Source: Alphaproteobacteria bacterium | GTDB taxonomy: Bacteria; Pseudomonadota; Alphaproteobacteria; Micavibrionales; Micavibrionaceae | NCBI GenBank assembly: GCA_009995595.1 | Contig: JAACPE010000002.1 | Location: 372,001-436,000, forward strand | DNA: 64,000 nucleotides | Direction: 5' to 3' | The notes under the pieces: generated by a model | The model's input: only the letters and a program-made list of their open reading frames with translations | Told to the model about the DNA's origin: nothing | Databases searched by the model: none | Part shown: one piece after another, positions 10,663 through 63,924 of the stretch | How positions within the stretch are numbered: position 1 is the stretch's first letter | Layout: each line of letters starts with the position of its first letter | Made by a program: the position numbers and the translations under genes

Positions 10663-11451
10663 ATGAAACTTGCAACGTGGAATATTAATTCTGTGCGCTT
10701 GCGTGCGCCTATTGTACTTGATTATATGGCATCGCATGCGCCTGATATTTTATGCTTGCAAGAGACAAAATGCCCTGATGATCTTTTCCCGCTCGATCTA
10801 TTTCATGCGGCGGGGTATGAGCATATACACATGAGCGGCATGAAGGGGTATAACGGCGTTTGTATCTTTTCAAAAATTCCTTTCAAAAACTCTGCTGTTC
10901 ACTCCCGTGTGGGCAAAGATGATTGCCGTCACATCGAGGTGTCATTTGATGGGTTTGATCTGCATAACCTCTATATCCCCGCTGGAGGTGATGAGCCTGA
11001 TCGTGCGATAAACGAAAAATTCGGTCATAAGCTCGATTTTGTTGATGAAATGACTTCGTTTTTTTCTAAAAAATATACATCTAAAAAACCAGTTATTGTT
11101 GTGGGAGATTTTAATATTGCCCCACGCGAGCATGATGTTTGGTCATCCAAACAATTACAAAAAGTTGTGTCGCATACACCAATAGAATTAGAGCGATTAG
11201 AGAAAATGTATAACACACTTGATTGGGTTGATGCCGTGCGTCATTTTGTTCCCGATGAAGAAAAATGTTATTCGTGGTGGTCGTATCGCAATCGTGATTG
11301 GAAACAATCAAACCGTGGGCGCCGCCTTGATCACATTTGGGTAACGCCACCTTTAAAAGACAAACTTAAATCCTATGATATTCATGCAACCGCCCGCGAT
11401 TTTGAAAAACCATCCGACCATGTGCCTGTCATGGTAGAGATTGATCTTTAG
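10663..11451 (+). CDS. xth: Exodeoxyribonuclease III
   Basis: A 262-residue enzyme of the endonuclease/exonuclease/phosphatase fold that cleaves AP sites and degrades 3' ends in base excision repair. Motifs are WNINSVRLR (about 6-14), LQETK with the metal-binding Glu34, GDFNIAP (~146-152) with catalytic Asp and Asn, and the final SDHVPVM with catalytic Asp-His. It starts 13 bases after ybaB and is likely in the dnaX-ybaB transcript. Its last four bases overlap the convergent DUF1223 gene. Confidence 0.95.
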   Translation: MKLATWNINSVRLRAPIVLDYMASHAPDILCLQETKCPDDLFPLDLFHAAGYEHIHMSGMKGYNGVCIFSKIPFKNSAVHSRVGKDDCRHIEVSFDGFDLHNLYIPAGGDEPDRAINEKFGHKLDFVDEMTSFFSKKYTSKKPVIVVGDFNIAPREHDVWSSKQLQKVVSHTPIELERLEKMYNTLDWVDAVRHFVPDEEKCYSWWSYRNRDWKQSNRGRRLDHIWVTPPLKDKLKSYDIHATARDFEKPSDHVPVMVEIDL

Positions 11452-12179
11452 TTTTTAATCTGACCCGCAGCAATAATATCACCCGAGCCATTTTGGGTTT
11501 GTGCAATTATAACATAACCCGCAGCATTCTCTTTAATCTCGTAAGATATGCGTTTAGCCTCTCCATCCCATGTCCCTAGCGGTGTAATAGCTGTCACAGG
11601 ATTAGTGTATGAAACAGTACGCCCTGTGTTCTCACCAATTGGGATTTTTTGAGTATGCTTATTCGCATGCGAAATTAGCAAGAGCGCCACAGGCGATGAC
11701 AGGCCTTCTTTTTGCGGCAGAGTAATATCAAGAACCCCCTCATTATTAATAATACGAATAGGCAAGACATGATTATCCTGAAAGGCTTTATGAATTATTT
11801 TGTTCACTTGTCCTGTTTGATTGCCAACCACATCATAAACACCATTAATGACCATTTGCGGTGTATACGGGCCACGGCTTTTCAGGCTACGCGTATAATC
11901 ACGCTGGCGGCGCGTACAAAAATCTTGGGACAGTGTATCTTCCCAATGAAGATGATTCCAATAAGTCACATTGCAACTAAGGGCAATGATGTTTTTATTT
12001 TCTGAGAGCTCTCCTAATAATTTATCTGCTGGTGGACAAGACGAGCAGCTTTGGGATGTAAATAATTCTACAATAACTGGCGAGTGACCAGTGTCAGCTG
12101 ATTTTGCGAGTGCGCTTGTCATGATTTGAAGAAACAAAAAACCAGCAAAACTGGCGCAAATAAACAATAAAAAACGCAT
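11448..12179 (-). CDS. Secreted DUF1223 (thioredoxin-like fold) protein
   Basis: About 243 residues from the preferred start. Translation could begin at 12212, but ATG at 12179 follows AAAGGGATCAC, a good ribosome binding site, and yields a clean signal peptide (MRFLLFICASFAGFLFL...ALAKS). The mature part starts SPVIVELFTSQSCSSCPPADKL, the DUF1223 hallmark with a CSSC motif on a thioredoxin-like fold, and continues with ALSCNVTYWNHLHWEDTLSQ. The family has no assigned reaction; periplasmic location and CxxC suggest redox work, as inference. It is tail-to-tail with xth, overlapping four bases. Confidence 0.85.
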   Translation of the reverse strand: MRFLLFICASFAGFLFLQIMTSALAKSADTGHSPVIVELFTSQSCSSCPPADKLLGELSENKNIIALSCNVTYWNHLHWEDTLSQDFCTRRQRDYTRSLKSRGPYTPQMVINGVYDVVGNQTGQVNKIIHKAFQDNHVLPIRIINNEGVLDITLPQKEGLSSPVALLLISHANKHTQKIPIGENTGRTVSYTNPVTAITPLGTWDGEAKRISYEIKENAAGYVIIAQTQNGSGDIIAAGQIKN

Positions 12180-12233
12180 GTGATCCCTTTGAATAAGTAT
12201 TTTAATGCTCATTCGGGATAGGAATCTATTTTG

Positions 12234-13124
12234 TTACATCATCGGTAAATAAGGCTTTTGAAACATAATTAGAGAATAATAACCGAAATCTTTATAGCCG
12301 AGCGCCGTGTATGCTTTTTCTGAGGCTTCATTTTGCGAAAAGATAACAGTTTTCTTTTTCTCCCACCTGTCTCTTGCAACCAATAAAATAGAGGCGACGA
12401 TCGGGCTTGCAAAACCTTTTGTTCTGTTTTCTGGGCTCACCCATACGACACTGGGCTGAACTGTATCGTCAGTAACGGCGTTAAATCCCGAAAAGGCGAC
12501 AGGTTTTTCTTGATACTCAAACAACCAATATTTGCCATTACTCATAAAATCCTCAACATCGCGGGCAATACGCGCGCGCGATGTTTCATTATCCTGCCCG
12601 GAACCAAATTCCATTTCATAATCAAAACGCCATTTCATCATAAGATCACGGTCTTGCTCTTTGGGGTCACGGCGATAAAAATCTGGGTCATGGCATAAGG
12701 CAGGGACTTTTAAATCCTTAAGGGACATGGCCAAAAGATGCTCTTTTGAATTAACCGTGCGTGGCCACTCTTGTATATCCATGACTTCAATTAATTCTTG
12801 AGCTTGATCAAATGACCCTAAAATACCGCGAATGCTTCGCCCTGAATTAAAGGCATTTTTGATAACAGCTTGGCTTAATTCTGCAATACCGTCCTTTGCC
12901 TCAATCATAACATTGCCATTCCAATAATGGGCGATCACGCCCACTAATTTCCCATCACGAAACGCGCCAAAATGATCCCCTTGGTTGGGTAATCCTCGAT
13001 AAGTAAGGCCAGCAATGGCAATGTGAGAGCGCATAAACATGCAGCTCTCAGCATGTTTTTCTAAAAATACATCGGTATCAATACGATCAGAGCTATTTAA
13101 TTGACGCACTAAAATCATAGTCAA
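12234..13124 (-). CDS. Predicted GNAT-family acetyltransferase (COG3393-like)
   Basis: A 296-residue protein. The N-terminal half (to ~140) is a degenerate GNAT-like domain (HFGAFRDGKLVGVIAHYWNGNV). The C-terminal half carries the active-type GNAT fold: EYQEKPVAFSGFNAVTDDTV, then WVSPENRTKGFASPIVASIL with the acetyl-CoA loop at NRTKGFA, and IFSQNEASEKAYTALGYKDFGYY, the usual motif B ending. The arrangement fits the predicted acetyltransferase family COG3393. The substrate is unknown. ATG at 13118 is an alternative start. It is upstream of the DUF1223 gene on the same strand, 54 bases apart, so co-transcription is possible. Confidence 0.78.
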   Translation of the reverse strand: MTMILVRQLNSSDRIDTDVFLEKHAESCMFMRSHIAIAGLTYRGLPNQGDHFGAFRDGKLVGVIAHYWNGNVMIEAKDGIAELSQAVIKNAFNSGRSIRGILGSFDQAQELIEVMDIQEWPRTVNSKEHLLAMSLKDLKVPALCHDPDFYRRDPKEQDRDLMMKWRFDYEMEFGSGQDNETSRARIARDVEDFMSNGKYWLFEYQEKPVAFSGFNAVTDDTVQPSVVWVSPENRTKGFASPIVASILLVARDRWEKKKTVIFSQNEASEKAYTALGYKDFGYYSLIMFQKPYLPMM

Positions 13125-16469: not shown

Positions 16470-18113
16470 ATGACTCTGCTTCGCACCCTTCATCAAAGCA
16501 TACGGACACAAGCAGGTCGCTTGGCCTATAACTCACCGTTCTATAACTGGAGCCTTGGGGGAAGTGTCCCGCCTAAAATGTTATTTAGTCCAACAGATGT
16601 TTGGAAAGGCAAATGTGATGATGCCCGCTGGCTTTTAAATTCTGGTGCATTTTCAATTGGCGGCGATCGTTTAGAACTGCATAACGCCAATTGGCACCCC
16701 GAAGGCGTCAGTGATATTTGGATCAAACACATACACAGCTTTGACTGGTTACGGGATTTACGCAGTTTAGGCGGGCATGATGGACGTCGCGGCGCTCGCT
16801 TGATGGTGATGAGTTGGATCGAAACCCATGATCATTGGCACGAGGATTATTGGCGCACTGATATACTAGGTCGCCGCCTTGCGAACTGGTTTGCGGGCTA
16901 TGATTTTTTTGGTGAAAGTGCTGATGATTATTTCCAAGAGGCGTTTATGGATAGCGCTATCCGTCAGCTTCGCCATTTACGCCGCTCTTTATCAGGCAGT
17001 ATTTATGGTCTTGATTTACTGTACGCCATAAAGGGGCTCATCTATGGCGGCCTTGTTTTTGAAGGGCGCGAAGAATATCTGGAGCATGGGCTTCATATCC
17101 TCGATACACAAATCGACAAACAAATCCTAAGCGATGGCGGTCATATAAGCCGCAACCCTGAGCAACTGCTTCAGTCTGTTCAAATTTTGATTGATATACG
17201 TACGGCGCTTCGTCAAGGCGGCTATCCTCCTATAGAGAAAATTCAGCACGGACTTGACCGAGCAGTACAGGCTATAAGATTCTTGCGCCACAGCGACGGC
17301 AATTTCGCGCTGTTTCATAACGCCCAAGAAAACACCGATGATACAATCAAATCTGTTTTAATGCACGCAGGCGTACGGGCGCGCGCACTGAAATCCTTGC
17401 CCCATACAGGCTATGAAAAAGTGGTCGAAGGGCGCTCTATCCTCATCATGGACACGGGCAAACCAGCAAGCTGGCCGTATGATTGTGATGCCCATATTGC
17501 GCCTCTAGCATTTGAGTTTTCTCACGGGCGTGAGCGTATTTTTGTTAATTGCGGCAGTCATCCGACCTCCACCGATTGGCAAGACGCGTTACGATCTACC
17601 CCCGCGCACAACACAGTTATTATTGATGATCGCAATATTTGCGACCTTCACGATGACGGACGCGTACGTTATCGTCCGAAAATTGTTGAAGTTAGCCGTG
17701 ATGATAAACGCGGCTCAACCCTTATAGATGCAAGCCATGACGGCTACGTTCCTCAAAACGGCATTGTCCACCGCCGCCGTTTATATCTGGCAAATAAGGG
17801 ATTTGACTTTCGTGGTGAAGAAACCCTGACATGCATGCTTGGCCTCGCTAAACCGCATTGTGTTGCCATACGATTTCATCTGCACCCTGATGCCAAGGTA
17901 TCTTTGGTTAAAAAAGGCCGTGAGGCGCTCATTCGTCTTAACAACGGCGTAGGCTGGCGTTTCACCGTCGAAGGGGGGGAATTGGCTATGGATAATAGTG
18001 TTTATTTAGGGTCTGGCATTCGCCCCCGTAAAACCAAGCAATTGGTGATTACAGGCACGATGGAAACAGACCGCCGCCAATTTAAATGGGCCTTGCAAAA
18101 AGAGGGGGCTTAA
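16470..18113 (+). CDS. Heparinase II/III family protein
   Basis: A 547-residue protein with an N-terminal helical (alpha/alpha) toroid (to ~300; tryptophan-rich segments such as HWHEDYWRTDILGRRLANW and LRRSLSGSIYGLDLLYAIKG) and a C-terminal beta-sandwich (about 330-540; FVNCGSHPTSTDWQDALRSTPAHNTVIID, FRGEETLTCM). This matches the heparinase II/III-like family of polysaccharide lyases. The alphaproteobacterial version next to rpe is common, but its true substrate is not known. No signal peptide is apparent, so it may be cytoplasmic, which is odd for a lyase. The stop overlaps the next, convergent gene by four bases. Confidence 0.9.
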   Translation: MTLLRTLHQSIRTQAGRLAYNSPFYNWSLGGSVPPKMLFSPTDVWKGKCDDARWLLNSGAFSIGGDRLELHNANWHPEGVSDIWIKHIHSFDWLRDLRSLGGHDGRRGARLMVMSWIETHDHWHEDYWRTDILGRRLANWFAGYDFFGESADDYFQEAFMDSAIRQLRHLRRSLSGSIYGLDLLYAIKGLIYGGLVFEGREEYLEHGLHILDTQIDKQILSDGGHISRNPEQLLQSVQILIDIRTALRQGGYPPIEKIQHGLDRAVQAIRFLRHSDGNFALFHNAQENTDDTIKSVLMHAGVRARALKSLPHTGYEKVVEGRSILIMDTGKPASWPYDCDAHIAPLAFEFSHGRERIFVNCGSHPTSTDWQDALRSTPAHNTVIIDDRNICDLHDDGRVRYRPKIVEVSRDDKRGSTLIDASHDGYVPQNGIVHRRRLYLANKGFDFRGEETLTCMLGLAKPHCVAIRFHLHPDAKVSLVKKGREALIRLNNGVGWRFTVEGGELAMDNSVYLGSGIRPRKTKQLVITGTMETDRRQFKWALQKEGA

Positions 18114-54461: not shown

Positions 54462-56213
54462 ATGACATCACTCACACAAAAATTATCGGCTCTTGTTGGG
54501 GCGGCGTTTGAGGGGCAGGGGCTTGCTAAAGAGCTAGGGCTTGTTCGTGTTTCTGATCGTCCTGATTTGGCGCAATATCAATGCAATGGCGCGATGGCGG
54601 CGGCGAAACAGGCGAAGAAAAACCCGCGTGAAGTGGCACAGAATATCCTTGATGCGCTTGAAGGTAACGCCGCGTTCTCAAAATTAGAAATCGCGGGTCC
54701 AGGGTTTATTAACCTTAATATCACGGATGATTTTTTAAAATCTCATATAGAGGGCAGCCAAAATTTTGGCGTGACAGCGATTTCGCCTTCTGAAAAAGTT
54801 GTGCTTGATTATGGCGGCCCGAATATTGCTAAGGCAATGCATGTTGGGCATTTACGCGCCGCAATTATTGGCGATTCCGTGCGTCGTATCATGTTATTTG
54901 CGGGATATGATGTCCTTGGTGATGTGCATATGGGTGATTGGGGCACGCATATGGGTATGCTGATTGCCGATTATTTGCGTCTGGATGAGGCCCATCTTGT
55001 TTTAGAGACAGATATAAATGACGCCGCCTCTGTTCATGCCTTGATGGAAGATATGGCGGCGCGCTATCCTAAGGCCTCAGGTGAGGCAAAAGAAAACGCA
55101 AGCTTAAAGGCTGAGGCATTAGAGGCGACCGTAAAATTACAAAATAGAGAGCAGCCCTATTACGGGATTTGGGAAAAAATCCGTGATGTATCTGTTGCAG
55201 GGATGAAGGAAACTTATGCCCGTCTTGGTGTCCATTTTGATCTATGGAAGGGTGAAGCCGATGTGCATGATTATATTGCCCCCATGGTTGAGGAGATGAA
55301 GACCAAAGGTATCGCTGAGGAAAGTGACGGCGCGCTTGTTGTTCATGTCGTTGATGAAGACGATAACAAGAAAATTCCGCCTATGATTTTGTACAAACGC
55401 GATGGTGCGGTCATGTATGGCACTACCGATTGCGCGACCATTGTTGAGCGCGTGAAACTCTATAATCCGAGTAAGATGGTCTATGTCGTTGATCAACGCC
55501 AAGCGCTCCATTTTGAACAAGTGTTTCGCGCCGTTCGCAAAGCAGACATAGTAAATGATCATACCGAACTCACGCATGCGGGTTTTGGTACGATGAACGG
55601 TAAAGATGGCAAGCCCTTTAAAACCCGCGAAGGTGGGGTCATGCGCCTTGAAGATCTTATACAAATGGCAACAGACAAAGCGTATGCGCGCCTTGATGAG
55701 GCAAACTTGGCGGCGGATATGGACGCGCATGAGCGTAGCGATGTCGCGCACAAGGTTGCGATTGCAGCCATTAAATTTGCCGATTTACAAAACCAACGCC
55801 AAGCTGATTATGTTTTTGATCTTGACCGCTTAACAAGCTTTGAGGGTAAAACCGGCCCTTATCTCCTCTATCAAGCGGTGCGGATTAAGTCGCTTTTGAA
55901 TAAGGCGCGTGATGCAGGCATTACCCTTGAAGGTGAGTTAATTGTTGAGGAAGGTAATCGTGAATTATTGCTTTTGATGACGCAGTTTCCCGAGGCCTTG
56001 CAGCTTTCGATTAATGGATATGCGCCGCATCATCTTTGTGAGTATGTTTTTAAAATGGCTCAGGCCTTCAGCTCGTTTTACGGTAACTGTCATATTTTGT
56101 CAGAAGCAGACGAAGCGCTTAAAGTAAGCCGTCTGAAGCTGTGTGAAATGACGGTAGCGCAGCTTGAAAAAATATTAGAGCTTTTGGGTATCTATGCACC
56201 AACGCGGATGTGA
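54462..56213 (+). CDS. argS: Arginyl-tRNA synthetase
   Basis: A 583-residue class I synthetase. The N-terminal additional domain (~1-105) precedes the Rossmann core with the HIGH-type motif NIAKAMHVGHLRAAIIGD (~126-143); the anticodon-binding DALR domain is C-terminal, ending ALKVSRLKLCEMTVAQLEKIL and LGIYAPTRM. It charges tRNA-Arg. The 3' end overlaps the convergent RAYT gene by 22 bases. Confidence 0.97.
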   Translation: MTSLTQKLSALVGAAFEGQGLAKELGLVRVSDRPDLAQYQCNGAMAAAKQAKKNPREVAQNILDALEGNAAFSKLEIAGPGFINLNITDDFLKSHIEGSQNFGVTAISPSEKVVLDYGGPNIAKAMHVGHLRAAIIGDSVRRIMLFAGYDVLGDVHMGDWGTHMGMLIADYLRLDEAHLVLETDINDAASVHALMEDMAARYPKASGEAKENASLKAEALEATVKLQNREQPYYGIWEKIRDVSVAGMKETYARLGVHFDLWKGEADVHDYIAPMVEEMKTKGIAEESDGALVVHVVDEDDNKKIPPMILYKRDGAVMYGTTDCATIVERVKLYNPSKMVYVVDQRQALHFEQVFRAVRKADIVNDHTELTHAGFGTMNGKDGKPFKTREGGVMRLEDLIQMATDKAYARLDEANLAADMDAHERSDVAHKVAIAAIKFADLQNQRQADYVFDLDRLTSFEGKTGPYLLYQAVRIKSLLNKARDAGITLEGELIVEEGNRELLLLMTQFPEALQLSINGYAPHHLCEYVFKMAQAFSSFYGNCHILSEADEALKVSRLKLCEMTVAQLEKILELLGIYAPTRM

Positions 56214-56926
56214 TAAGGAATATATTGGCGCGACTGGCCAGTAGGTTCCTCTGGCTTTGGTTTTTTGGCGATACGAGCTTTGCGTCCGCGTTTTTGAGGG
56301 CGCACTTTTTTCCCGAGTTTTAATTCTAACTTATCAAGAAATGTATCTGTGCCGCGCGGCCTTCCTGTCTGAAGATGGGTTTGAATATCTTTAAGCTCTG
56401 CCGCTTCCATAGGGCGGTTTAAAAACTCATCCCAATTATGAACATTTGTGAATTGCGGTAGGGGGGTTAAAAAAGGATCATTTATTATTTTGATACGGTT
56501 TTTTGCACTGCTCCAAAGGTAGCTTTCTGGCTTTGGGGCAATTTTTGAAGTGACGGGCATGGTCTCGATAAACCGAAGCGCTCTAAGGGAGTGCTCATCA
56601 TCACAGACATAAGAGAAAAAACGGTCTTGAAAAAGATGGCCGCGCCACTCATTGCGCTTATTAATCATGTTGGTATAACGCCGATGAGTTTCACCAATAG
56701 CGCGCGCCAAAAGATCAGAGTCCTTGGGCACAGCAAGCAAATGGATTTGGTTTGGCATGAGGCAATAGCTTGCGATTTTAATGTCAAAGCGCTCACATTG
56801 CTCTTTTAATAAATCCAAATAGGCCTGAAAGTCCCCTTTTTCAAAAAAAACAGGCTCACCGCGATTGCCACGTTGCGTGATGTGGTGGGGGGTATAATCA
56901 AGAGTGATGCGGGCCTGGCGTGCCAT
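56192..56926 (-). CDS. REP-associated tyrosine transposase (RAYT, IS200-like)
   Basis: A 244-residue Y1 transposase-like protein (family Y1_Tnp). N-terminal HHITQRGNRGEPVFF and YLDLLKEQCERFDIKIASYCLMPNQIHLL are typical; the HUH metal motif, normally HxH, reads Q-I-H here. The catalytic Tyr is likely in AIGETHRRYTNMINKR, followed by HLFQDRFFSYVCDDEHSLRALRFIE. The C-terminal ~50 residues are very basic. RAYTs are domesticated single-copy genes that act on REP hairpins; a REP-like repeat lies right upstream (56947-57031). Loss of the first His may weaken strand cleavage. It overlaps argS by 22 bases. Confidence 0.85.
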   Translation of the reverse strand: MARQARITLDYTPHHITQRGNRGEPVFFEKGDFQAYLDLLKEQCERFDIKIASYCLMPNQIHLLAVPKDSDLLARAIGETHRRYTNMINKRNEWRGHLFQDRFFSYVCDDEHSLRALRFIETMPVTSKIAPKPESYLWSSAKNRIKIINDPFLTPLPQFTNVHNWDEFLNRPMEAAELKDIQTHLQTGRPRGTDTFLDKLELKLGKKVRPQKRGRKARIAKKPKPEEPTGQSRQYIPYHIRVGA

Positions 56927-57098: not shown

Positions 57099-57878
57099 TT
57101 ATCGCGCTAATAATGTATGGTAGTAATGGTAACCATAACTAGGAAAACCTGTATTAGATCCTTCAACGCAATAGCTGTATTTTCCATTTGTATAGCTACC
57201 TGGGGACATACCATGCACGAATGGTGTAAAACTTCCGCGATATTTTGAAGATGAGGTTGATGCAAATCGGCTGGAGGCCTTTGGGGGATCGCCACTAGGT
57301 TGGTTATCAACACCAAGTAGATTGTTGATTTGAATGCAAATATCTTTGTTAATGTAAAAATGATATAGTAATAATTCAGAATATAGTCTTCTTTCAGGAC
57401 CAGTTTCAGGGCAATTTTGCCCAATATTTTGTACGCATGTGCCGTTGAAAAACACAGGTTTTCCTGATGTTAGCCAGCCATCAAAATGAGTCAATGTTGA
57501 AAAATTAGGGTCATAGTAGCTTTTTGGAAACACTTTAAAGTTAATTTTACCCCCATTATCATTAAAGATATGGCAAGAGAAATTTGCAGGAGATCCAGAA
57601 TTACTGTAACCACCTTCAACGGAGTTTTCAAAACTTATTTGTGATTCTGCGCAGCCATTTCTTCTTACACGTCCAATTGCAGCTTCTACTAAATTTGAGT
57701 ATTCAATCAAATTTTGGGCAGCAATTTTCGCCTGTTGTTTAGTGAGGTTCCCCGTTCCTTTATTAGCGCTTTTTGAAAAAGTATAGCCCAGAGCGCCAAA
57801 GAGAACGACGGCAATAAAGATGATGACAAAAACGTTACCAGATTGGGCGTTATCTTGTTTAGTTTTATTCTGCGGCAT
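57099..57878 (-). CDS. Pilin-like secreted or surface protein of unknown function
   Basis: About 259 residues from ATG at 57878 (57893 is an alternative). A short polar leader (MPQNKTKQDNAQSGN) precedes one hydrophobic helix (VFVIIFIAVVLFGALGYTF), then a helix with IAAQNLIEYSNLVEAAIGRVRRNGCAESQISFEN (split ~45-78) and a Cys-rich beta-type C-terminus (several CxxN-like Cys, Ser/Gly-rich). The layout recalls type IV pilin or pseudopilin, although no canonical prepilin cleavage site is evident. Its start overlaps the dotL 3' end, so it is co-transcribed with DotL/DotM homologues. Confidence 0.65.
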   Translation of the reverse strand: MPQNKTKQDNAQSGNVFVIIFIAVVLFGALGYTFSKSANKGTGNLTKQQAKIAAQNLIEYSNLVEAAIGRVRRNGCAESQISFENSVEGGYSNSGSPANFSCHIFNDNGGKINFKVFPKSYYDPNFSTLTHFDGWLTSGKPVFFNGTCVQNIGQNCPETGPERRLYSELLLYHFYINKDICIQINNLLGVDNQPSGDPPKASSRFASTSSSKYRGSFTPFVHGMSPGSYTNGKYSYCVEGSNTGFPSYGYHYYHTLLAR

Positions 57879-60234
57879 CAATAAAACCATCATTGCCAGA
57901 TTGGAATAAAGATTGTTTTAATCCTGCGCCTGCTTCGGTCAAAATTTTCTTTGCTTCTGGATCAATTGTCCCAAAAGGGATAACTTTTTCAATTGGCGCT
58001 TGTGCCGCTGGCGTTACTGGCGGCGCTACAGGCGCGCTCATAGGTTGCTGTACCACAGGTGGCACTAATGTTGGTTGTATTGGTGCTGAGCTCATTGGCG
58101 GGGCCGTTGGCGGTGGCGCATTTAGTGGCGGGCTTGAGACCAAAGGCGGTATTTTGGATGTAACAGGTTGTTGTACGGGCGGAATAGGTTTAATGGCTTG
58201 TGGCGCGGTTGATCCTGGGCTCATAAGTTCTCTGCGGGCTTCTTGCGCCTCAGTTGGGAATTTATCAGCGTGCAAAGAGGCAAGAGCCACAATGCCATGA
58301 TCAACGACGTCACTGCATTTTTCGGCGCCTAGTTTATAGCCATTGCAGATTGTTGTGATTTCAATCGGTGTTTCAACGGCAACATCTGCCTTTTGCGCCG
58401 TCCATGTTTTACTAACAAGGCGATCACGCAGTTTGGTGATCTGGTCAGAATGTTTGACAGCCGTTTCATTGGGGGGCGGTAATGACAGATATCGTGTGAC
58501 GCGCATCGCCTTGGCATGGCCGGGGTTAGAGTAGAAAATATTCAACTCTAAAACATCCATGGCAAAAGAAACGATCGCTTCCCCTTCTTTCATGTTTTTC
58601 AAGTCATCGTAGTCGGCACGTGTTCCTGTGTCGATACCCACTTGTTGTGTATCGTGATAAGAGCCTGTCGACATACCGCCAGAAAGCTGAAGGCTGGAAA
58701 CCTTCGCAATATAATCTTTTCCGATGTGGTTTTCAAAAAACTCACGGGTTTGGGTTGGGTCTTGAAGTTTACCAAATATCTTAATGTTACAGTTCGCTGT
58801 AATAGAGCGTGCTTCTTCTTTTACGCGTTTTTCCATAGCCTGTAAGTCCTGCGCGGAAAAGATAAGACAAAATCCAAGTGAACGCGCTTGCGCCGCCATA
58901 ACGGCCATACCTTGCGCGGTATAATAACCAACCTCGTCAAAGACAACCATAAAAGGCGTCGCGGAATGTGTTGGTTTGTTCTCAATAACGCTCGCACTCT
59001 CCCCTTCTAAAGTAGAGCCGAGGGTTGAGCCCATCATCCCTTTAATTGTGGCCGCAATAATTTTACCAAGGTTGGCCGTTTCATCCCCTGATTTTTCAAG
59101 GGCAGGAATAAGTGTAATCATAATACGGCGGTTCAGGACAACATCAACCATATCAATATCAGCTGAGGCTGTTTCAAAAATATAACCGTAATCATCACCC
59201 AATGATTGCAGGGCGCGTGTAAACTGCATGGTCAAATAACCGTGCTGCTGGTGAATAGTGTTTGTGTCCACCATTGGCTGATCAGGGCCGAGGGGCTTTT
59301 CTTTTCCTTGGTCATCAAAGGCATCTTCAATATAACCAGGCAATGTTTCCAGATATCCTGTAATCCCCTCACGAATTTTTTCGGGTAGCGTTTCATCACG
59401 CGACATACGAATAACGTATTTTAACCCGAGATAGGTACGGATGGAGTTAACAGATAGAGGGAAATCTTGTTTATCGCGTTTAAAAGTAAGAGCTGGCATG
59501 ACGGAGCTCAAAAGAGAAACTGCACGCTCTTTCCACATCGCGTTGTCGCCCTCAGCCTCCGGCATCAAAGAGACAAGCATCTGTGTTAAATAAGAGGCAG
59601 AGCCACTCGAAAACGGGTTCAAGGTGTTTGATGGTGAACGTCCATCGGAGTTACCCGTCATATAGTTCAAAACTAATAGATCGTCATCGCGGCCAAAACG
59701 TCGCACAAGTGATGACAAAGAGGACCACAAATCGGTATCGGCTTTACCATCAATATAAACAAAGCCAGATCCCCATGACAAAGCGCTTGTTACAAAAGAT
59801 TTGAGCCCCTCTGTTTTACCAGAGCCTGTTGTTCCGAGGTAAAGAATATGTGTTCTTGCGTCTGAATTACTATACCAAACTTGTTGTTTTGTTCTTTTTT
59901 CGTTTCCGATAAAAAGAATCCCCTCAGCTTCCCCATTTTTACCAGCGCCTATATTATTTTTATCTTTATACGGAGAGCCAACTGGCATCTTACCGGGAAG
60001 GGTGCGGTCTCTTGTTTTTAACCACCAAAAGAAAAAAAGATATCCAATAAAAATTAAATCCCCAAAATAAGCGGCGGCTTTGGGCATAAAGAAAAAACTC
60101 ATTGCGCCAATTAGGCAAACAGCAAAGGCATAGCTAGGCTGGGCAATAGATTCCCCAAAACGGACATAGAGAGGACGAATGTCTCGTATAACATCCTTCT
60201 TACCATATCCATATTTTTTCCGATCGAGAGCCAT
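57865..60234 (-). CDS. icmO: Type IV coupling protein, DotL/IcmO homologue
   Basis: A 789-residue AAA-like T4CP. Two N-terminal transmembrane helices (about 33-52 and 57-72) are followed by Walker A GTTGSGKT (134-141) in ARTHILYLGTTGSGKTEG. Walker B is at ~430 (FMVVFDEVGYYT). The tail from ~690 is Pro/Ala-rich (PVQQPVTSKIPPLVSSPP). DotL couples substrates to type IVB secretion (Dot/Icm) or IncI-like conjugation. It follows a small bitopic protein and the dotM homologue, the Legionella icmP-icmO order. Nothing shows whether this machine secretes effectors or moves DNA. Confidence 0.9.
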   Translation of the reverse strand: MALDRKKYGYGKKDVIRDIRPLYVRFGESIAQPSYAFAVCLIGAMSFFFMPKAAAYFGDLIFIGYLFFFWWLKTRDRTLPGKMPVGSPYKDKNNIGAGKNGEAEGILFIGNEKRTKQQVWYSNSDARTHILYLGTTGSGKTEGLKSFVTSALSWGSGFVYIDGKADTDLWSSLSSLVRRFGRDDDLLVLNYMTGNSDGRSPSNTLNPFSSGSASYLTQMLVSLMPEAEGDNAMWKERAVSLLSSVMPALTFKRDKQDFPLSVNSIRTYLGLKYVIRMSRDETLPEKIREGITGYLETLPGYIEDAFDDQGKEKPLGPDQPMVDTNTIHQQHGYLTMQFTRALQSLGDDYGYIFETASADIDMVDVVLNRRIMITLIPALEKSGDETANLGKIIAATIKGMMGSTLGSTLEGESASVIENKPTHSATPFMVVFDEVGYYTAQGMAVMAAQARSLGFCLIFSAQDLQAMEKRVKEEARSITANCNIKIFGKLQDPTQTREFFENHIGKDYIAKVSSLQLSGGMSTGSYHDTQQVGIDTGTRADYDDLKNMKEGEAIVSFAMDVLELNIFYSNPGHAKAMRVTRYLSLPPPNETAVKHSDQITKLRDRLVSKTWTAQKADVAVETPIEITTICNGYKLGAEKCSDVVDHGIVALASLHADKFPTEAQEARRELMSPGSTAPQAIKPIPPVQQPVTSKIPPLVSSPPLNAPPPTAPPMSSAPIQPTLVPPVVQQPMSAPVAPPVTPAAQAPIEKVIPFGTIDPEAKKILTEAGAGLKQSLFQSGNDGFIDAAE

Positions 60235-60267
60235 TCTTTAGCTTACCTTATAAACCTTTAAACTTAA

Positions 60268-60825
60268 CTAAAACCCTTGTAAAAAATCATCAGCAGACAT
60301 AGGCACACCTGTTTGTGGCTGTGACGGGTCAACTGCGCCTTGGGTTGTTAAGGCGCGTGTTTCAAATGATTGTGAGGAGGGCATTGATTGCGTCCAAAAA
60401 TAATAGACGATCCCAATAACAAGAAGTGTTGAGAGTAAGGCAACAACCCCCCTATTATTTGCAGGGGCGGCAACGGGGTTCGGTGCTTCTTTTTTTGATT
60501 TGGGTTCTTTTTCTTTTACTGGCGTGGCCGATTTACTTTTATTTGTTTTTAAAGCTTCTGAAACCATCAGTAGTGCGGACAGCGCCTTTTCTTTAGTCTC
60601 AAATTGACCAATAACGTCTGGTTTTGCACGCGTTGATTTTTTTACCATTAATGCAAAACTTTTATTTTCTTTTTTAACCTCGAAAGACGAGTCTTTGGCT
60701 TTTTCTAAATCAAGGCGCCAGACTTTTGGCTCAATCGCATCGGGTAATGAAACGATAAGGCAGTCGTCATTGATTGCCGCAGAGGCAAGAGGCGCGGTGT
60801 CTTTCTTTTTTAAAAATCCCATCAT
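60268..60825 (-). CDS. Bitopic membrane protein between DotM and DotL
   Basis: About 185 residues. ATG at 60825 (or 60822) is chosen because AAAAGGAAT precedes it at a fitting distance; a longer reading into the dotM gene has no such site. It starts MGFLKKKDTAPL, has a beta-rich N-terminal domain (IVSLPDAIEPKVWRLDLEKAK, SFALMVKKSTRAKPDVIGQF), a Lys/Pro-rich linker, one transmembrane helix (VVALLSTLLVIGIVYYFW) and a polar tail. I recognise no family. Its position between dotM and dotL makes it a likely accessory part of the same complex. No counterpart lies between icmP and icmO in Legionella. Confidence 0.65.
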   Translation of the reverse strand: MMGFLKKKDTAPLASAAINDDCLIVSLPDAIEPKVWRLDLEKAKDSSFEVKKENKSFALMVKKSTRAKPDVIGQFETKEKALSALLMVSEALKTNKSKSATPVKEKEPKSKKEAPNPVAAPANNRGVVALLSTLLVIGIVYYFWTQSMPSSQSFETRALTTQGAVDPSQPQTGVPMSADDFLQGF

Positions 60826-60841
60826 TATTCCTTTTAAATCT

Positions 60842-62056
60842 CTATGCTGTCTTAACTTTTTTGATGCCGCGTTTTGTGGAGGCGCTGTAATCAAGTGTTG
60901 GTATAGGGCGCGCATTGCTATCGGCCATATAGTCGACAATCGCAGTTACTGCATCTTGAACCTTTGGCCTTGGTATCGGGCGCTTGGCTCTTTTTTCTTC
61001 TTTGAAGTGTGCCATCGCACCAACGGCTTCCATGTGATGCGATTGGCGCCCAAGGTTATTCAGAGGGTACCAAAGCAAACGATCATGCCCGCGCAGCCAT
61101 ACAAATTGTGCGGGCGCCATAACGCCTCCCTCTTCGCGCGCTGTGAGCAAGGCGCGAAGCAAAGCCGTTGTTGTCCAGGCATGTTGATTACAGTTTTTTA
61201 GAACAGGCCCTGCAAGCTCTTTATCCTTTAAAACACGGTTAGCTTCTTTTAAGATGTCTGGATTTTTGTTCATTTGGAACCCTTTTTCATGATCCCAACA
61301 CATGGCAAGCTTACTCATTAAGTTATCGCTTTTAACGCGTTCTCTCGCGGCCTTATAACAGCAAGCGGCTAAAAGAATTTTTTCATAATTTTTGAGCGCC
61401 TTTGGCCCAGCCCAGCGGCGCCCTAATTGTTTGGCAAAAGCGTCAAAGCATGCGTCTTGATTGATGACGCCATCAGGCACAGGGATTTGGTTATAAGCGA
61501 GCCATTCTTCCGGCCCTAATGCCTCTGCAAATAAGGGAAGTTCAACAGGCACCGGAGAGCCTGGCGGCCTCGGCTTCATTTTGGAAGGGTTAAAATTGTT
61601 AAACGGGCTAATTACAGGGAAGGCTTTAGATTGGAAATTCATAAAGCTATCTAAGTTAAAAATATCTGTATATTGTGTCCCTGGTCCGCGCGTGTAAGTC
61701 CAAAGGCCAATTAAAATAATAACACCCGCAAAAAACCATTTCATGGGCAGAAGGGCAAGTGATGTCATACCTGCCAAAATACCAACATCTAGTTTTTCCA
61801 CTGGATAGGCTTTTGTTGCTTCCATCCAGTCTTTAAGGTTGACTGTTTTACCGTTTAAAAGAGTGACCATATAGTCATCACTCACAAAGAGGGATACAAT
61901 CCACATCTCCCAGTATCTTAGCCATCGAAGAGAATTGTTAATTTCGTCCTCGAGAATAAAATAGTAAATAACCCATAAAAAGACCGCTAGGACGCCCAAT
62001 ATAAGCGCCCAGCCAATAGCCTTTTCCGACATTCCATCTGCTTTACCGTCAGACAT
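60842..62056 (-). CDS. icmP: Type IVB secretion protein DotM/IcmP homologue
   Basis: A 404-residue protein. N-terminal transmembrane helices lie near 14-34 and 93-115. The cytoplasmic domain contains HAWTTTALLRALLTAREEGGVMAPAQF and WLRGHDRLLWYPLNNLGRQSHHMEAVGAMAHF, which match DotM/IcmP (and TrbA of IncI plasmids). DotM binds DotL and recruits substrates with acidic C-termini in Legionella. It leads an operon with the bitopic protein, DotL and the pilin-like protein. A region of ~196 bases upstream holds its promoter. Confidence 0.85.
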   Translation of the reverse strand: MSDGKADGMSEKAIGWALILGVLAVFLWVIYYFILEDEINNSLRWLRYWEMWIVSLFVSDDYMVTLLNGKTVNLKDWMEATKAYPVEKLDVGILAGMTSLALLPMKWFFAGVIILIGLWTYTRGPGTQYTDIFNLDSFMNFQSKAFPVISPFNNFNPSKMKPRPPGSPVPVELPLFAEALGPEEWLAYNQIPVPDGVINQDACFDAFAKQLGRRWAGPKALKNYEKILLAACCYKAARERVKSDNLMSKLAMCWDHEKGFQMNKNPDILKEANRVLKDKELAGPVLKNCNQHAWTTTALLRALLTAREEGGVMAPAQFVWLRGHDRLLWYPLNNLGRQSHHMEAVGAMAHFKEEKRAKRPIPRPKVQDAVTAIVDYMADSNARPIPTLDYSASTKRGIKKVKTA

Positions 62057-62576: not shown

Positions 62577-63560
62577 ATGATAGGAAATGTTGGTAATCTT
62601 TTATCATCAACACAACTAAGCGTATTAAAAACAATTCAGCAGACAACTGCTGATATTAACCGTGCGCAGCTCGCGCTCGCCACGGGTAAAAATGTGCAAT
62701 CTGCAATCGATGCCCCCCAAAATTTCTTTGCGAGTCAATCACTCTTTTTTCAGGCAGATGATCTGAACACACTCCTTGATGGTATCGGAACAAGCGTGCG
62801 CACCCTTCAAGAGGCCAATAATGGTATTGAAGCCATTCTAAAGCTAGTGGATCAGGCTGAAGCGCTCGTGAATGAGGGGCTGCTTGAGTTATTTCCCAGA
62901 ACGGATGAAATACCTGATGCGGAGGCTATTCAGTATATTCTGGATAGAAATCCAGATAAGGCTTATTTAGCATCAACAAATAACTTTTATCAAAATACGA
63001 CGGATTTTGCGGGATGGTTTGAGGCGCGCGATAATGCGGCTCAAGCTGGCCTTAATGGCGTACCTGAATTAAGAGGACATTTGGCGACAATTACATCCCA
63101 AGAAGAAAACGACTTTGTTTTCAACTTGTTAACAGCTACCAGCTGGTTGGGGGGGAGTGATGATGCCGTAGAGGGAGAGTGGCGCTGGACGGAAGGCCCA
63201 GAGGCAGGTCAGCAGTTTTGGCAAGGTCTGGCGGGTGGAAGCGCGGTAAACGGCGCCTATACAAACTGGGGAGCAGGTGAGCCTAATCAGTTTTTTGGTC
63301 CGGGAAACCCTGAAAACTTTGCCCACATGCGCGCCGATGGCCGTTGGAATGATTTGCCGGCTACACAAAACTTGAATTACATTATTGAATGGGGCGGCGA
63401 CCTTTTGGTTCAAAATCCCGATATTAATGTTTCAAGCGATGCGATGGATTATCGCCGTGATTTTTTGGCAATTATTGACCAAATAGAAGAGATTTCAATC
63501 GATGCCAGCTATAGAGGTGTGCAGCTTTTACGAAATGATGCCCTAGAGACGACTTTTTAA
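62577..63560 (+). CDS. Flagellin N-terminal part with an inserted C-type lectin domain
   Basis: 327 codons to TAA at 63558-63560. Residues 1-~105 are a flagellin D0/D1 domain (STQLSVLKTIQQTTADINRA, QLALATGKNVQSAIDAPQNF). Residues ~127-273 are a C-type lectin-like domain: HLATITSQEENDF (168-180), WLGGSDDA (190-197), WRWTEGP (202-208), the sugar-specificity motif EPN (235-237), WND (257-259) and YIIEW (268-272). EPN in Ca-dependent lectins usually means mannose/glucose-type binding. After 275 the D1 return helix follows (DYRRDFLAIIDQIEEISIDASYRGVQLL, split). Its reading frame ends early; the rest of the flagellin is in the +1 frame (63559-63924). The lectin would sit at the filament surface. 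Confidence 0.9.
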   Translation: MIGNVGNLLSSTQLSVLKTIQQTTADINRAQLALATGKNVQSAIDAPQNFFASQSLFFQADDLNTLLDGIGTSVRTLQEANNGIEAILKLVDQAEALVNEGLLELFPRTDEIPDAEAIQYILDRNPDKAYLASTNNFYQNTTDFAGWFEARDNAAQAGLNGVPELRGHLATITSQEENDFVFNLLTATSWLGGSDDAVEGEWRWTEGPEAGQQFWQGLAGGSAVNGAYTNWGAGEPNQFFGPGNPENFAHMRADGRWNDLPATQNLNYIIEWGGDLLVQNPDINVSSDAMDYRRDFLAIIDQIEEISIDASYRGVQLLRNDALETTF

Positions 63561-63924
63561 CCGTGATAGCCGCAGTAAGCTTGAAACCGAAGGCATGGAC
63601 GCAAGCATGGAAGGCCTTGGGCTGACCAATGATAATTTTATCAGTAAAATTGAAATGACAAAAATACTCGGCCAATTACAAGAGGCGCGTGAGACCCTTC
63701 GTGACTATAGCGCCAGCATACAAACTGACCTGCGCGTTATTGAAACGCGGCGCGATTTTATACAAAAAAACGTTAACACCTTTCAAGCAGGGGGCGATGA
63801 CCTGATTCTTGCGGATTTAAATGAAAAGGGGAGTCAAATCTTGGCTCTACAGACCCGCCAACTGATCCAATTTGAAACGCTATCTTTTACCTCTAATCTT
63901 AATATTTTAGATTTGTTCTCCTGA
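63559..63924 (+). pseudogene. Flagellin C-terminal part, in the +1 frame
   Basis: Codons from AAC at 63559 to TGA at 63922-63924, 121 residues, open directly from the preceding gene's stop without a start of its own; ATG at 63595 has no ribosome binding site. Sequence such as KIEMTKILGQLQEARETLRDYS, LRVIETRRDFIQKNVNTFQAG and LALQTRQLIQFETLSFTS is the flagellin D1/D0 C-terminus. Joining it with the upstream frame by skipping one T in a T5 run gives a complete flagellin of about 448 residues. Either a true frameshift (inactive gene or recoded product) or an assembly/sequencing error. Marked as pseudogene because no independent start exists. Confidence 0.75.

Follow-up and report, generated by a model that had tools for sequence, protein, structure and literature searches.

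The last gene of the window (the whole stretch of 64,000 nucleotides that was analysed) encodes a flagellin with a C-type lectin-like domain (CTLD) inserted in its predicted D1 domain, and, judging from profile matches and conserved ligand residues, it is likely that this protein belongs to a group of modular lectin-flagellins through which the filament would bind glycans in a Ca2+-dependent way. A flagellin carrying such an inserted domain had been described in the first-pass annotation, and the profile searches agreed with it: Flagellin_N and Lectin_C were both matched (Table 1), Lectin_C at 34 bits (curated cut-off 22.6), and both families were matched at E 0.01 or better in all eight orthologues, the window protein included. 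What that annotation did not spell out is that the two halves of the gene lie in different frames. The lectin-flagellin of the window is real as a feature, but its gene as assembled is interrupted by a one-base frameshift. Flagella help some bacteria to adhere, and the source of the binding specificity is often unclear; here the specificity would come from a recognisable lectin built into the filament.

Table 1. Features of the lectin-flagellin gene, in positions of the window
Feature	Position	Strand	Remark
Flagellin N-terminal part, C-type lectin domain and start of C-terminal part	62577..63560	+	ORF, 327 aa, ends at the frameshift
Flagellin_N match (D0 and first D1 helix)	62613..62870	+	residues 13-98, E 1.2e-8
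Whole inserted CTLD module with N-terminal extension	62898..63416	+	residues 108-280; similar module, extension included, in the genome's RTX proteins
Lectin_C (PF00059) match	63069..63383	+	residues 165-269, E 5.3e-8
WLGG motif	63144..63155	+	read from sequence
EPN motif	63279..63287	+	E235, N237; invariant in 8/8 orthologues
E246 codon	63312..63314	+	invariant in 8/8 orthologues
WND motif	63345..63353	+	N258, D259; invariant in 8/8 orthologues
Second half of Flagellin_N profile (positions 90-136), behind the lectin	63399..63536	+	weak alone, E 0.25; agrees with the FljM alignment
TTTTT run, where the frame shifts by one base compared with five aligned orthologues	63554..63558	+	in-frame TAA at 63558-63560
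Flagellin C-terminal part, with the remainder of D1 and D0, shifted frame	63559..63924	+	profile positions 326-448, E 6e-45

The flagellin core and the insertion point

Flagellin ends were found at both termini: Flagellin_N was matched in 8/8 orthologues and both ends aligned to the solved flagellin FljM, in one frame for seven of the orthologues and in two for the window protein. The alignment of the orthologue profile with FljM (E 1.3e-15 for the whole) falls into two pieces: the stretch ahead of the lectin corresponds to chain residues 15-92 and the stretch behind it to 101-272, and the first of these is weak alone (i-Evalue 0.0089); the N-terminal part of the window protein alone matched no PDB chain at E 0.01. 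This two-piece alignment, together with the second Flagellin_N match behind the lectin, places the lectin within Flagellin_N, and by this alignment the lectin sits inside D1, where FljM has residues ~92-101, which accords with the split within D1 that had been proposed from the first reading. We take the insertion point to lie between ND1a and ND1b, the first and second N-terminal D1 helices; the classical D2/D3 domains start later than this point.

The C-terminus was identified as flagellin by the FljM alignment and by NCBIfam models below their cut-offs, and Pfam Flagellin_C was matched in 0/8 CTLD orthologues at E 0.01. For the lectin-flagellin L018, Flagellin_N was below the Pfam cut-off (23.6 vs 26.6 bits) and the NCBIfam flagellin models matched both ends, again below their cut-offs. 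The only NCBIfam models matched by L018 and by the window protein were flagellin models, all below their cut-offs.

The lectin domain and its predicted sugar site

The sequence relatives of the insert in the PDB point to the C-type lectins: the best phmmer matches include CLEC10A (E 4e-9), mannose-binding protein, conglutinin, aggrecan and the lectin domain of the IgE receptor, and fish type II antifreeze proteins also count among the relatives. The motifs WLGG, EPN and WND follow one another in the order first reported. In all eight orthologues, the window included, E235, P, N237, E246, W, N258 and D259 are kept without exception, and five of these residues (E235, N237, E246, N258 and D259) would, by comparison with mannose-binding protein, be the ligands of Ca2+ site 2. 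The presence of calcium- and sugar-binding residues at the aligned positions, on which the first-pass annotation had made its reading depend, was thus found for all five ligand positions. EPN is the mannose/glucose form of the C-type lectin site, and CTLDs can also bind ligands other than sugar. The lectin domain contains no cysteine, and no peptidase family was matched in the window protein (Pfam, E 1).

An AlphaFold2 model of the CTLD module, made from a 7-row alignment, was poor (pLDDT 46.7, pTM 0.52). With this weak model, the best 50 of 371 Foldseek matches were all chains of the C-type lectin-like kind, judged by their titles or known identities, the best E being 2e-4 with six matches at 0.001 or better, and the TM by query was only ~0.3-0.4 with an rmsd above 10 Å. 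VIA-align with the same weak model gave a best Z of 9.1 (rmsd 2.6 over 85 residues), and 52 of 537 chains had a Z of 8 or more. A model of an intact orthologue from a 3-row alignment (AlphaFold2, pLDDT 42.5) was set aside.

The interrupted reading frame

The lectin-bearing ORF stops at a TAA codon, and the flagellin C-terminus resumes in another frame (Table 1). Each of the seven other orthologues has one uninterrupted frame, of 445-462 aa, and at the T run the five orthologues aligned there have one base fewer than the window gene. The window copy may be silent in this organism, rescued by slippage, or misassembled. An assembly error in the homopolymer, with the gene intact in the living cell, has in our judgement close to an even chance. 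This would agree with the open frames of the seven other orthologues, with the fact that both frame changes seen in this genome fall in homopolymer runs, and with an assembly in which 18 of the 20 other window proteins scanned have Pfam matches and, by eye, no neighbouring ORFs carry halves of one family. However, a run of five T is short for such an error, and a real mutation is equally likely provided that the rest of the assembly is sound. Somewhat more doubtful is a pseudogene in this organism, in which the frameshift removes the C-terminal D1/D0 half, so that no lectin filament would be made here, although relatives may make one. The frameshift relative to the five aligned orthologues argues for it, as does the second CTLD gene of the genome (an RTX gene, G000:C5), which likewise changes frame, at an 8-G run. 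In contrast, both halves of the window gene are well conserved, the C-terminal part matching its profile strongly (Table 1), and the CTLDs of the window and L018 have a pN of 0.114, while first-clade pairs without the window have 0.120-0.194. Since both halves are still conserved, any break would be recent or not real.

Three further explanations were weighed. A programmed +1 slip at TTT TAA is possible by sequence, but the site is absent from the five aligned orthologues. A four-letter code (TTTT=F) by which the gene could be read through misreads other TTTT sites in the gene and was discarded. Phase variation at a poly-G tract had a candidate in the 7-G run of the WLGG codons (63149-63155), one of only two G/C runs of seven or more in the window (the other is at 17973-17979), and in the 8-G run at the break of the RTX gene, but it finds no support, the seven other orthologues having no G run at the WLGG codons.

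Distribution of CTLD flagellins

The profile of CTLD flagellins was matched in eight of the 142 genomes of the order, namely G000, which is the genome of the window and was matched in two frames, G001, G007, G008, G035, G017, G092 and G068; the first four of these are among the ten genomes of the genus. Lectin_C matches were found in at least 9 of 385 genomes in a sample of the class and in at least 8 of 398 in a sample of the phylum. The broad family search was less sensitive, with one Lectin_C match in G000 vs three in the search of that genome itself at E 0.001, and since CTLDs are missed in this way, the genome counts are lower bounds. When the loci from the class and phylum samples were scanned with the flagellin profile, CTLDs in flagellins were found only in G593, a genome of another class. 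The supposed rarity of the combination is in keeping with the numbers obtained, eight of 142 genomes of the order and one in the sample of 398 of the phylum, both as lower bounds.

G593 has two neighbouring CTLD flagellins (L175:9160-10458 and 11255-12547, minus strand) with open frames of 439 and 436 aa. In this case Flagellin_N (3.5e-44) is contiguous, Lectin_C (1.1e-11) and Flagellin_C (6.6e-21) are matched as well, and the CTLD lies behind the complete Flagellin_N; this different insertion point suggests a separate origin of the CTLD flagellins in G593. One of the two sugar sites has EPN and the other QPD, and both depart from WND. When 61 genomes around G593 were searched, the two genes of G593 itself were the only full-length ones among the matches listed. 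Searches of viral contigs gave one distant CTLD with A7 and none with A6.

Interchangeable inserts in flagellins and RTX proteins

The genome of the window (1.99 Mb, 99.97% complete) has six flagellins and one FlgL-like protein (L014, matched over its length by TIGR02550 with 67 bits, below the cut-off of 127, and called a flagellin by another model). Besides the lectin-flagellin there are an ordinary flagellin (L011, with a weak Flagellin_IN match), three flagellins with a Laminin_G_3 (LamG) insert (L013, L015 and L009, the last just below the Pfam cut-off) and one, L010, with an insert of an unnamed family that we labelled JR. The question raised with the first reading, whether the other flagellins of the genome lack the insert, thus has a divided answer: the five others are without a CTLD, but four of them carry other inserts, three of these LamG. 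All three Laminin_G_3 matches of the genome are in flagellins and none are in RTX proteins.

Among 62 flagellins of the order with both ends, the inserts clustered into 26 LamG, 13 JR, 12 ordinary, 7 CTLD and 4 singletons; this set came from 40 regions picked mainly for flagellin ORFs of unusual length and from 16 earlier loci, with three one-ended ORFs dropped, and because of this choice the counts are not frequencies. The singletons are L039, with a further Laminin_G_3 type, L153 (216-1919, minus strand), with a Gly-rich domain (Gly_rich_2, PF21722, E 2e-23), and L138 and L046, which group with the ordinary flagellins on the core tree. LamG, a lectin-like module, was the commonest alternative insert found at the insertion site of the lectin, and the Sialidase N-terminal family is matched as well in 4 of 27 flagellins with LamG. 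The JR module, of ~165-200 aa, is common to 13 flagellins and an RTX protein. It matched no Pfam family at E 0.01 (only SGBP_B at E 0.073, in one of the 13), its profile had PDB matches on flagellin chains, and the NCBIfam matches of L010 were flagellin and hook-protein models; by eye, it appears to be beta-rich.

The CTLD with its N-terminal extension is also carried by three RTX proteins of the window's genome (L006, L007 and L008). L006 matches a type I secretion target model and has JR (E 6e-39) directly behind its CTLD (E 5e-43), and an RTX protein of a relative (L026) has a CTLD and LamG. The CTLD module of L007 has lost the EPN/WND residues. In L008 (2400-3300, on G000:C5), the frame changes at the 8-G run, inside the CTLD, and the new frame leads on to an RTX-like C-terminus.

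Evolution and conservation of the inserts

A tree of 63 flagellin cores, built without the inserts, requires two changes of the CTLD label, both forced by well supported branches. The LamG flagellin L039 is sister to the window's clade, and the label changes in the order may mean that the CTLD was gained twice, or that it was gained once and replaced in L039; two gains are accordingly not claimed. The ordinary flagellins form one group on this tree, and LamG and JR need four changes each, one of them forced. The tree of the CTLDs has three flagellin clusters (the window's clade, L022/L088/L089, and G593), apart from the CTLDs of RTX proteins; its deep branches lack resolution, and one origin is still compatible with it.

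Insert identity was higher than core identity in all six pairs of the first CTLD clade (means 76.5% vs 56.1%) and in two of three pairs of the second. The same was found in 28/28 LamG pairs, but in 0/1 for the pair L013/L015, and in 12/21 JR pairs; for ordinary flagellins, insert identity was below core identity in 45/45 pairs. These comparisons covered ten ordinary flagellins, eight LamG flagellins and one LamG pair, seven of the 13 JR flagellins, and four and three CTLD proteins of the two clades, with the window left out. Synonymous differences were near saturation in lectin and core alike for nearly all pairs, and recent exchange of the lectin therefore does not explain the pattern of conservation. 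The simplest reading would be purifying selection on the lectin together with relaxed constraint on the filament core, which would suit accessory subunits.

Sigma-54-like sites upstream of the flagellins

The pattern TGGYAYN5TTGC, which we take to be the -24/-12 pattern of sigma-54 promoters, was sought in 63 flagellins, in the 160 bases that precede the start of the flagellin match. It was present upstream of 12 of them, namely eight with LamG, two with a CTLD, one with JR, and L039 (examples are L009, L142, L088 and L022). Controls resampled by a first-order Markov model gave a mean of 0.05 and at most 2/63, and a spacing one base shorter or longer gave 0/63. No such site was found at the window gene or at any of the 14 ordinary flagellins.

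Proposed role of the lectin-flagellin

We propose that the D1 domain of this filament subunit is split after its first N-terminal helix and ahead of the second, making room for a whole C-type lectin module that carries the residues of a Ca2+-dependent sugar site, and that the protein is one of a lineage-wide set with interchangeable modules (CTLD, LamG and JR), kinds that also occur in the RTX proteins of the lineage. The subunit would be exported and would co-polymerise with ordinary flagellin as an accessory subunit, the lectin would stand on the filament surface and bind sugars with Ca2+, and the filament could thereby serve as an attachment or sensing organ for glycan-coated surfaces such as other bacteria, algae or matrix. 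Prey capture is no more than a possibility. The better conservation of the lectin than of the core in the window's clade, the several module types at one site, and the occurrence of CTLDs in flagellins of another class together point to selection for glycan binding on flagella. More tentatively, with slightly less than even confidence, the flagellum of the lineage could be regarded as a modular multi-lectin adhesion organelle, in which ordinary flagellin is combined with accessory flagellins whose interchangeable glycan-binding modules (CTLD, LamG and JR), from a pool shared with RTX proteins, would recognise and grip glycan-coated targets, for example prey or host cells. The predicted sugar-binding residues make flagellar specificity directly testable by glycan array, and the insertion site suggests a second, natural display position on filaments.

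Alternatively, the CTLD might be structural and not a lectin, thickening or stabilising the outer filament surface as D2/D3 do. The outer domains of ordinary flagellins have such roles, and sugar binding is here predicted from sequence. However, the Ca2+/sugar ligands are invariant and the lectin of the first clade is more conserved than the filament core, which would not be expected of a filler, and the commonest alternative insert at the site, LamG, is itself lectin-like; we consider a purely structural role unlikely. The variable proteins that are targets of diversity-generating retroelements also share the C-type lectin fold, and the CTLD could in principle be such a target and not a fixed lectin. 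This is very improbable, as the reverse transcriptase family (PF00078) had no match in the whole genome of the window at E 0.01, and within its clade the CTLD varies less than the core, where such a target would vary more.

Relation to known flagellins and lectins

By sequence, the solved flagellins closest to the D0/D1 core are FljK, FljL, FljM and FljN (solved filaments, e.g. 8uxn and 8uxj), which are presumably those of Caulobacter. The likeness to the present genome extends to the several flagellins per cell; these proteins differ in having 270-273 aa, whereas the lectin-flagellins have ~185-200 extra residues where FljM has residues ~92-101. The insert resembles animal C-type lectins (mannose-binding protein, CLEC10A and CEL-I) in its profile match, in the order WLGG-EPN-WND and in the five Ca2+-site residues. 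Canonical disulfides are typical of those lectins; in contrast, the present domain is without cysteine, has an extra segment before EPN, and is carried by flagellins and RTX proteins. The RTX proteins of the lineage share the CTLD, LamG and JR modules (CTLD and JR adjacent in L006, CTLD and LamG in L026) but have another scaffold and another export route, to which the type I secretion target model in L006 points, and the flagellin CTLDs cluster apart from theirs on the CTLD tree.

Flagellins that carry inserts are already known, and within the literature searched the C-type lectin insert is the new element. No description of a CTLD flagellin was found in searches of the open-licence PMC literature. 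In the main text of Eckhard et al. 2017 (PMC5595980), 61 domain types are reported in flagellin hypervariable regions, and the ten commonest insert types in its Table 1 include gluzincin metallopeptidase, vWFA and Sialidase and no C-type lectin; the word lectin is absent from that main text, and the full domain list is in the supplement. A term search of PMC7643111 led to one passage, in which lectin is likewise not mentioned. Given the Sialidase N-terminal matches of 4 of 27 LamG flagellins, some inserts of LamG type may already be counted in PMC5595980. As described in the main text of that paper, flagellinolysin is similar to the present protein in that a functional domain is inserted in the central part of a flagellin, is shown on the filament and was gained by domain insertion; it differs in that its insert is a gluzincin metallopeptidase, whereas here it is a C-type lectin with an insertion point inside Flagellin_N.

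Genomic surroundings

The lectin-flagellin gene (62577-63924) is preceded by tRNA-Thr and tRNA-Gln, and the next gene, beyond the window, is RNA methyltransferase-like, as judged by eye. An ORF with RTX-like repeats (L005:3712-4239, on G000:C6, outside the window) starts ~1.8 kb downstream of the lectin-flagellin and runs off the contig end. On the other side, at 57865-62056 on the minus strand, a TraG/TrwB-like coupling protein lies near a DotM_C protein (PF23127, E 4.5e-47), and the two resemble a Dot/Icm-type coupling pair beside the flagellin. The window also contains an IS200-like Y1 transposase (56192-56926, minus strand) and a Heparinase II/III-like protein (16470-18113, plus strand).
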